Positions 4,091-44,344 of a stretch of DNA of 44,344 bases are shown piece by piece; position 1 is the first letter of the stretch, and each line of letters opens with the position of its first letter. Both the position numbers and the translations under genes were made by a program. A model generated the notes under the pieces. It searched no databases, was not told the DNA's origin, and saw nothing but the letters and a program-made list of their open reading frames with translations. The stretch is taken from the NCBI GenBank assembly GCA_003566455.1, contig PXDF01000019.1, positions 1-44,344 of the forward strand, read 5' to 3'. Source of the DNA: Desulfonatronovibrio sp. Lineage in GTDB: Bacteria; Desulfobacterota; Desulfovibrionia; Desulfovibrionales; Desulfonatronovibrionaceae.

Positions 4091-4513
4091 ATGCGCGACA
4101 TCAGCTGGAGCCATTTTGAACACAAGGCTGACATGGGAATAGAGGGAAGAGGTCCGAGCATGGAAATAGCCTTTGCCCAGGCAGGCCTTGCCCTGAACGC
4201 CATAATATCTGATTTGAAATCAATCAGTCCCCGGGTTGTCCGACAGATCAGATGTCTTGGTGATGATCCTGAGATTTTGTTTTTTGACTTCATCAATGAG
4301 ATAATTTTTCTCATTTCATCTCAAGGCATGATTTTCTGCCGGATTGAGGTGAAGATCACAGACTCTGAGCTTGCGGCCTGGCTCTCAGGTGAAGACATAG
4401 ATCCCGCGAAACATGATCCGGCAGTAGAAATTAAGGGCGCCAGCTTTAATAATCTTTCCGTGAAGCAGGATAAAAACGGCCAGTGGGTGGCCAGATGCGT
4501 TGTTGATGTTTAG
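4091..4513 (+). CDS. archease
   Basis: A 140-aa protein of the archease family, full length. The family's N-terminal pattern is present (HFEHKADMGIEGRG: the conserved H, D and G before the first helix, then A-FAQAGLAL), as are the central DPEILFFDFINEI segment and the acidic VVDV end. Archease activates the RNA ligase RtcB by helping its guanylation and allowing multiple turnovers. RtcB is the next gene, 96 bp downstream on the same strand, which strongly supports the call. The ribosome site is weak. Confidence 0.88.
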   Translation: MRDISWSHFEHKADMGIEGRGPSMEIAFAQAGLALNAIISDLKSISPRVVRQIRCLGDDPEILFFDFINEIIFLISSQGMIFCRIEVKITDSELAAWLSGEDIDPAKHDPAVEIKGASFNNLSVKQDKNGQWVARCVVDV

Positions 4514-42341: not shown

Positions 42342-42373
42342 TGGTGCCCCCGCCAAGATTCGAACTTGGGCTA
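42342..42373 (-). repeat. left 32-bp repeat: tRNA 3'-end fragment (candidate att site)
   Basis: On the minus strand this is the 3' end of a tRNA: T arm CCAAG-TTCGAAT-CTTGG, acceptor strand CGGGGGC, discriminator A and CCA. No matching 5' strand (GCCCCCG) or tRNA body lies to its right in 42374-42450, so it is a fragment. It is identical over 32 bases to 44313-44344. Confidence 0.85.
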
Positions 42374-42545
42374 ACCAGGATTGCCTTTCTTTCATCCAGG
42401 GCGTACAAACGCATCCCAAGCGTATAGCTTTCACCTGAAACATCATGATATAACAACAGAATCCCCATGAAAGTATGGAAAACAAGAATGCTAAACGTTG
42501 AAAAATTTCAGAACAAAAAATCCGTGAGTTAGTAAGGCTTTTTTT

Positions 42546-43367
42546 CTATGGCTTTGTGGAAGAGCGCTTAGTGTATTGCTTGGAGACGAGTTCGGCGACA
42601 AAGCTCCCGACAGCCACCTCGCTTTCTATCCTCACCGGGATCGAAGTGCCATCGGCTGTGACCCAAATCTGGAGTCTGGAATCCCTTTTCTTATCAAAAA
42701 CACCCCCAAGATGCTCCAGGTCCGGCTCAACAAGGAAGGTATCATAGGTGGTGCCAGCCACTGTGATGTTTTCTCTCTTGATCACCGTCAGTTTTCCCAT
42801 GACGCATCTTTTTCCGTCCGTAACCGGAGATTGATAGACGAGGCCTTCTCCCAGCTCAAGAAGACGAAAGGCGTAGAAGACAGACAAGGGATCGAATGAT
42901 CCGGGAATTATTGAGACAGGTCTGTTCTCCCTTCTAACATCTTTCCCTCTGATATCGGTGTAGAACGCTTTATTCTTTTCCCAGTCAAAGTTCACTGTGA
43001 TCTTCCGGTTCCTATTGCCCTTCTGGTGTTTGGTATAGAGCAGGGAGTGAGTCATGGCGTGATCGGTGTAGGCGTCGATGCGATCTCTGACTTTATAGAA
43101 GATATCTGCCAGCTTAGAGGTCCTGGCAGTGAAGGAGAAGTGGTATGATGGAATATTGTTCACTGTTGTCATAGGATGAATTTCAAGAACGGCTTCTCCG
43201 GCAGGGATAAACCCCCATCGAACATGAAAGATAAGCTTTTCACCTGAAGAAAAACGAATTTCCTTGTCTTCGGCGCCTGCGGGAAGAGAAATGAGCAAAA
43301 GGGCAAAAAGAAAAAATAAAACCCGCGCCCAAACCCGACTCAAACAAAAAAGGAATGAATCTTTCAA
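42546..43367 (-). CDS. DUF3108 periplasmic protein
   Basis: A 273-aa exported protein of the DUF3108 family. It begins with a signal peptide (VLFFLFALLLISLPAGA, then EDKEI). GEKLIFHVRWGFIPAGEAVLEI is the family's opening strand pair (landmark FHVRWG-IPAGEA), and DRIDAYTD, GSFDPLSVFYAFR, and RLQIWVTADGTSIPVRIES are its later landmarks. I choose TTG at 43367, after GAGGT, because it places the signal peptide at the N terminus; an upstream in-frame ATG at 43460 would add 31 polar residues. Function of DUF3108 is not established. It lies inside the tRNA-flanked islet. Confidence 0.8.
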   Translation of the reverse strand: MKDSFLFCLSRVWARVLFFLFALLLISLPAGAEDKEIRFSSGEKLIFHVRWGFIPAGEAVLEIHPMTTVNNIPSYHFSFTARTSKLADIFYKVRDRIDAYTDHAMTHSLLYTKHQKGNRNRKITVNFDWEKNKAFYTDIRGKDVRRENRPVSIIPGSFDPLSVFYAFRLLELGEGLVYQSPVTDGKRCVMGKLTVIKRENITVAGTTYDTFLVEPDLEHLGGVFDKKRDSRLQIWVTADGTSIPVRIESEVAVGSFVAELVSKQYTKRSSTKP

Positions 43368-43832
43368 CCTGACCTCTTGATTTTGGCTCTGTTTACCGGA
43401 TGGCAATGGAGAGTATCTGGATTGCCATTCAGAGTTAATGCTGTTGTTTATGTGAACCACCTTAACAGCCCTTGTTTAAATTCTCAAATGCTCGGTATCT
43501 CACTCTCATTGGCAAGGAGGGCAGCACCAAATTGTGAGCGCTTGGAAAACATTTACTGTAACCATATTAAGTCAAAACAGAAATGACAAGCCAAGCCGGT
43601 GATGAAAATCACTTGTTTCAGGCAAGAGCATATTCTTTGTTTTTATTTGGGCAGGGTTTGACAGTCAGTCGATTTTAAATGTATTTTTTTGATGATGATC
43701 TGCAAAACCTCTATTCCCTGAAGAATCCCCGGGGGCACCCTGAGCAGAAACAACTTGATCATTGCCATGATCAACCCCTTGGTTGTCACCAAGGAACAAG
43801 GAATTCTATAAATTCAACTGCGAGGTGATGGA
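43368..43832. other. intergenic region within the islet
   Basis: About 465 bases between the divergent DUF3108 gene and the NlpE remnant. A CCTTGG/CCAAGG hairpin with a 6-base loop lies at about 43776-43793. The 69-codon plus-strand frame at 43377-43586 has no ribosome site and is not called. Confidence 0.5.
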
Positions 43833-44220
43833 ATGAAAAGCAAGATTATATATATTGTGCTGCTGGTAATGTGTGCTGGAGGCTGTTCAGGCAAAACCCC
43901 ATCCAGGAATAGTAATTATGCTTATGATTTCCATTCCAGCCGGATTTCCCTGGACTGGGCCGGCACATACCATGGAGTTGTTCCGTGCGCTGACTGTCCG
44001 GGCATTGAAACATACATAACCTTAAACAGTGACCAATTCTTTTTTCATGACCAGGCGTTATGTGTAAAAAGATCATAACTTGTTTGAATGCCAGAGTTAT
44101 TTTAACTGGGATGAAAAGGGGAACATTATTCATCTGCGGGATGTGTCCTGTGGGCCCCCTTATTATCAGGTTGGAGAAAACAGGCTTTTTCAGCTGGATA
44201 TAGCGGGAAGGTTATTGTGA
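43833..44220 (+). pseudogene. frameshifted NlpE-like lipoprotein gene
   Basis: The first 60 codons encode a lipoprotein signal (IVLLVMCAGGCSG, lipidated C18) and the NlpE N-terminal domain motif DWAGTYHGVVPCADCPGIET with its CxxC pair. The frame then fails after the T6 run near 44038-44043. The rest of the domain continues in frame 1: MTRRYV, a TAA, then FECQSYFNWDEKGNIIHL and YYQVGENRLFQLDIAG, ending at 44220. So at least a frameshift plus an in-frame stop (or a second frameshift at the A5 run near 44069) break it. NlpE-type proteins sit in the outer membrane and sense surface or copper stress. Confidence 0.8.
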
Positions 44221-44312
44221 GAATATTTGCAGAGTTATTATTTTCTGCTGCTTACATAGTGCTTACCAGGCTTGACGCCTTCTTCACATATTCTCTGAAA
44301 AGTATTTATTTA

Positions 44313-44344
44313 TGGTGCCCCCGCCAAGATTCGAACTTGGGCTA
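44313..44344 (-). tRNA. partial tRNA 3' end at window edge (identity not determined)
   Basis: The same 32 bases as 42342-42373: CCA, discriminator A, acceptor strand CGGGGGC and a complete T arm, read on the minus strand. The 5' part lies outside the window. The implied 5' end is GCCCCCG, which would fit for example a tRNA-Leu, but the anticodon is not seen. It is probably the intact gene, since the DNA between the copies adjoins its 3' end. Confidence 0.6.

Follow-up and report, generated by a model that had tools for sequence, protein, structure and literature searches.

Among the elements described to date, the closest analogs of the locus analyzed here are CIMEs (cis-mobilizable elements, a category defined for relatives of ICEs and IMEs), in which the genes for integration and transfer have been lost and both attachment sites, attL and attR, have been kept, and which are found in tandem with elements inserted later (PMC5704250). 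Another point of reference is Islander, which requires an integrase and a length of at least 2 kb (range 2–200 kb; PMC4383910); because of these demands, islets of the sort described below are unlisted there. Our locus occupies the right end of contig PXDF01000019.1 (C203), one of the 245 contigs of a Desulfonatronovibrio sp. genome (GCA_003566455.1); this entire contig, 44,344 nucleotides long, is the window referred to throughout. Judging from sequence comparisons, we put at roughly 0.78 the probability that the islet is a deletion remnant, CIME-like in character, of an integrase-bearing island at a tRNA-Arg(CCT) hotspot. As such, it is most likely an unremarkable vestige at a frequently used insertion site and an element of a known kind.

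The islet is bounded by a direct repeat with 32 of 32 identical base pairs (42342–42373 and 44313–44344), exactly as reported in the initial annotation, and this sequence is the 3' end of a tRNA-Arg(CCT). The size of the repeat has to be amended: 32 bp is what the two copies share because the sequence ends inside the right copy, at the contig end, whereas the left copy is actually 41 bp long (42342–42382, minus strand) and reaches from the 3' terminus of the tRNA as far as the anticodon loop. All 41 positions of the left copy are identical to the intact tRNA-Arg(CCT) genes that are present elsewhere in the same genome, on contigs C72 and C178. An exact tRNA-end match of this length cannot reasonably be put down to chance (E = 6e-17 for the window), and the left copy appears as a displaced tRNA 3' fragment that marks the outer end of an islet of 1,971 bp (1.97 kb), measured from core to core. 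An Rfam search of the window detected three known tRNAs and nothing else; none of the other tRNAs of the window has a duplicated 3' end.

The recognizable content of the islet comprises two genes. The first one, an intact cargo gene of 304 codons, encodes a DUF3108 protein (42546–43460, minus strand; Pfam PF11306, E = 1.3e-43). The second one encodes an NlpE-like lipoprotein (43833–44222, plus strand) and is frameshifted and cut short: an initial 81-codon open reading frame matches PF04170 (E = 1.6e-9), and the remainder lies in a different frame and stops near the arm junction. The earlier observation that the islet carries no recombinase holds: there is no recombinase or integrase among the open reading frames between the repeats, and four integrases produced no match in the window. 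The DUF3108 gene shares 89–90% DNA identity with its copies in G012 and G014, two genomes of another genus (g2), compared with 75% for two neighboring core genes that encode homoserine dehydrogenase and an aminotransferase, and because of this excess of similarity, it was probably acquired horizontally. Three stretches of about 60–110 bp within positions 43450–43790 have copies, 74–84% identical, on seven other contigs of the same genome and represent dispersed, intergenic repeats.

The right copy of the repeat (44313–44344, minus strand) is incomplete because the contig ends there, not because of the choice of the window, and its nature can be gleaned from an overlap with C72. Positions 276–425 of C72 and 44195–44344 of the window are identical at 143 of 150 sites (95%), the tRNA core included, and the last 86 bases are the same; past these shared bases, C72 continues into a complete tRNA-Arg(CCT), followed by a gene that looks to encode a short, NfeD-like membrane protein. 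Hence the right copy likely is an intact tRNA-Arg(CCT) gene, as deduced from C72 and not read directly. The part of the shared stretch internal to the core (44195–44312) is denoted here the inner arm; to the left of it, the DNA of C72 differs from that of the window. Given that the two are only 95% identical over 150 bp, C72 would represent the site as it exists in a different strain, or else a second copy or neighboring unit. This difference to the left of a shared arm might suggest a longer run of accreted islets to which the present one belongs, the right copy being another displaced fragment and the intact tRNA being reached only past the C72 sequence or additional islets; tandem fragments spaced 0.9–1.8 kb apart are found at tRNA-Arg(CCT) in other families. 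However, C72 joins the inner arm directly to the intact gene, and the 86-base identical overlap of the contig ends could come from a path through the shared tRNA, so that an accreted run appears quite improbable. Contig-end overlaps, at 86 versus 90 bases, gave no single value for the assembler k; in a soda-lake study that includes genomes of this genus, assembly was done by MEGAHIT (k from 21 to 121; PMC6704655), which may not be the method applied to the window.

The tRNA-Arg(CCT) of C178 has similar DNA on its 5' side. Because one bin contains two tRNA-Arg(CCT) loci (C72, L011, 276–471; C178, L012, 166–243) whose 5' neighbors resemble each other, this bin probably mixes strains or species. 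No tRNA fragment was found beside the gene in the 3' flank of C178 that is shared, past a 3.3-kb extra stretch, with G003, a genome of the same genus. Such a mixed bin, with a contamination of 4.4% and similar genes next to its two tRNA-Arg(CCT) loci, invites the question whether the left copy is an integration scar at all and not a chance duplication or an artefact of assembly or binning. We find the latter hardly credible: the left copy is located inside the 44-kb contig, with 2 kb separating it from the contig end, has its boundary at the anticodon loop in common with many integrase cores (PMC4383910), and has an identical counterpart in an integrase-bearing element, PXAT01000052.1.

An exact scan of the named genomes for the 41-bp core returned three records. 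In PXAT01000052.1 (L131, 1–4380), the tRNA-Arg(CCT) 3' fragment is followed by the paired 11-bp direct repeat CTGCTTACATAGTGCTTAC (240–258), an integrase gene and, further on, a primase-polymerase gene. The integrase is a tyrosine recombinase of 418 amino acids that contains Arm-DNA-bind_3 and Phage_integrase domains. ARAGORN called no tRNA at the fragment. The outer flank of the fragment, in all 74 bp present on the contig, is identical to the DNA that lies 3' of the intact G012 tRNA, with a terminator-like hairpin included in the shared stretch, and by this match, PXAT01000052.1 and G012 read as the occupied and unoccupied versions of one site. PXAT01000052.1 is labeled as Ectothiorhodospiraceae; this label is contradicted by the flank matching G012, a genome of the same family as the window that appears to be a Desulfonatronospira sp., and the contig is probably misbinned.

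The same paired repeat is present in the islet, at 44248–44266 (plus strand) within the inner arm, with 19 of 19 positions identical to PXAT01000052.1, and is a putative arm-type site for integrase binding. When up to 3 mismatches were allowed, the 18-bp motif occurred once in the window, against 0.01 occurrences expected. In two related elements, the motif is positioned 166–174 bp from where the core begins. Repeats of 7 bases with such spacing arise in about 4% of shuffled arms and so are not rare by themselves; because the repeats alone are not rare enough, the argument relies on the shared sequence together with its position. The outer arm region (42383–42545), next to the left fragment, lacks the paired motif, the best 18-bp match there having 7–8 mismatches; the only match in the window is at the opposite, inner end. 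Taken together, the related integrase-bearing element, the unoccupied site and the shared arm-like motif give good support to the original suggestion of an integrase-type insertion at the tRNA 3' end.

The form that the unoccupied site had been predicted to take at this locus, acoB followed by 5 bp and an intact tRNA, was not found: acoB is beside no tRNA in the relatives checked, and none of 15 acoB loci contains a tRNA within 1.5 kb of the gene. The 3' side of tRNA-Arg(CCT) differs in nearly every genome. In the window, a block consisting of tRNA-Ser, the aminotransferase gene and the homoserine dehydrogenase gene adjoins acoAB; in G001, of the same genus, this block lies no more than about 7 kb from tRNA-Arg(CCT), facing it from the other end. 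The aminotransferase gene in G005 (L170) is accompanied, at 4318–4364, by just the 5' half of a tRNA-Ser(GCT), with the 3' half absent from the stretch read.

The genome of the window also encodes an integrase that is 53% identical to that of PXAT01000052.1 and has the same two domains. It belongs to a complete 3.5-kb island on C107 (L163, 8969–12534) that is delimited by an intact tRNA-Leu(TAA) and a tRNA-Leu fragment and has paired 11-bp repeats, TGAGTACATAGTGAGTAC and a variant, at its two ends; by analogy, this island illustrates a complete version of such an element. The C107 island additionally encodes a toxin-antitoxin-like gene pair. The tRNA core had no match in the viral contigs in which it was sought. 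With a related integrase encoded on C107, both cores and a well-kept inner arm in place, and small integrase-less islets recurring at tRNA-Arg(CCT) in other families of the order, one could envisage a live minimal satellite without an integrase of its own, excised and mobilized by an integrase that a related element, in this cell or a different one, provides. Yet the motif of the outer arm is missing, whereas the complete C107 island has repeats at both ends; the C107 repeat is a different one (TGAGTAC), and its host gene is a tRNA-Leu; and the nlpE-like cargo gene has been disrupted. The missing arm motif speaks against a satellite moved in trans, and we regard such a satellite as improbable. 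Thus, of the three options offered for the islet in the initial annotation (remnant, satellite moved by a helper, cassette exchange site), the first fits best, since the integrase is gone and so is the motif of the left arm, and the satellite has become less likely.

Fragments of the tRNA-Arg(CCT) 3' end were also detected in several other genomes of the order, and this gene is an insertion hotspot used across the order. The intervals bounded by such fragments include one of 10.9 kb that encodes an integrase and a Zot-domain protein (G058), one of 7.6 kb with integrase pieces (G057) and one of 44 kb (G036), along with small intervals of 0.9–1.8 kb that contain one or two genes each and no recognized integrase. 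The contents of the small intervals are a BrnT toxin, an Rrf2 regulator and an HD-domain (HD_5) protein in G044, a Fic protein in G052, and RRM proteins in G028 and G060. Tandem fragments were found in G044 (L088, 580–4883), G052 (L087, 4666–11632), and G060 and G028 (L090 and L091, 2947–4580). Several of the small tandem intervals share outer-arm sequence with the integrase-bearing element of G058. In G044, the interval nearest the tRNA encodes a 78% homolog of the G058 integrase, with integrase-less intervals behind it, the order expected if recent insertions go in next to the tRNA while earlier arrivals, pushed outwards, decay. The tandem arrays behind tRNA-Arg(CCT) in family f3 are the part of these observations that specialists might pursue. 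That tRNA-Arg(CCT) functions across the order as a port for small cassettes, bounded by tRNA ends and arms and moved in trans by the integrases of other elements, with the islet being one of them, seems very unlikely to us.

The remnant reading, then, is preferred over a live satellite because the arm and the integrase are missing and the nlpE-like gene is broken. Under this reading, the anticodon-loop region of tRNA-Arg(CCT) would have been the target of a mobile element encoding a tyrosine integrase with an Arm-DNA-bind_3 domain. A tRNA 3' end carried by the element itself would have made the tRNA on the right whole again, while the end that the gene had before was displaced leftward, to its position beside acoB. 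Later, the integrase gene and the left arm would have been deleted and the nlpE-like cargo gene would have decayed, the outcome being a 1.97-kb islet that retains both core sites and one arm. The arm-like motif points to a former integrase in the islet, and we infer that this integrase was lost after the insertion, rather than missing from the outset. The islet would then be a well-bounded example of how tRNA islands can decay to small cargo islets that standard island finders discard.

Tycheposons and PICMI-type satellites, by description, resemble it in being small, tRNA-linked or helper-dependent elements that carry cargo, but the islet has no recognized replication, packaging or integrase gene and no tie to phages. 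In contrast to a satellite moved in trans, it has a putative arm motif at the inner end only, not at both ends. With the tRNA islands of Islander, the islet has in common a displaced 3' fragment in the fitting orientation and on the fitting side and a core of the anticodon type, with the intact tRNA deduced from C72; it differs from them in having no integrase and, at 1,971 bp, falls short of 2 kb. The elements of C107 and PXAT01000052.1 resemble it in that their cores are tRNA 3' ends and that they carry a paired arm-like motif of 11 bp, the one in PXAT01000052.1 being identical, but, unlike the islet, have an integrase gene beside the fragment. By the definition of CIMEs, the islet would derive from an ICE or IME, would once have possessed genes for integration and transfer, and would be capable of moving in cis once another element had inserted in tandem. 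Conjugative ancestry is unsupported in its case, the nearest integrase-bearing relative, PXAT01000052.1, encoding a primase-polymerase within the 4.4 kb available, too short a stretch to judge conjugation genes, and the loss of one arm motif is another difference. Nevertheless, the islet, like CIMEs (PMC5704250), keeps both cores (41 bp and at least 32 bp) while lacking integration and transfer genes, and resides at a site where other elements insert, with tandem cases in other families of the order.
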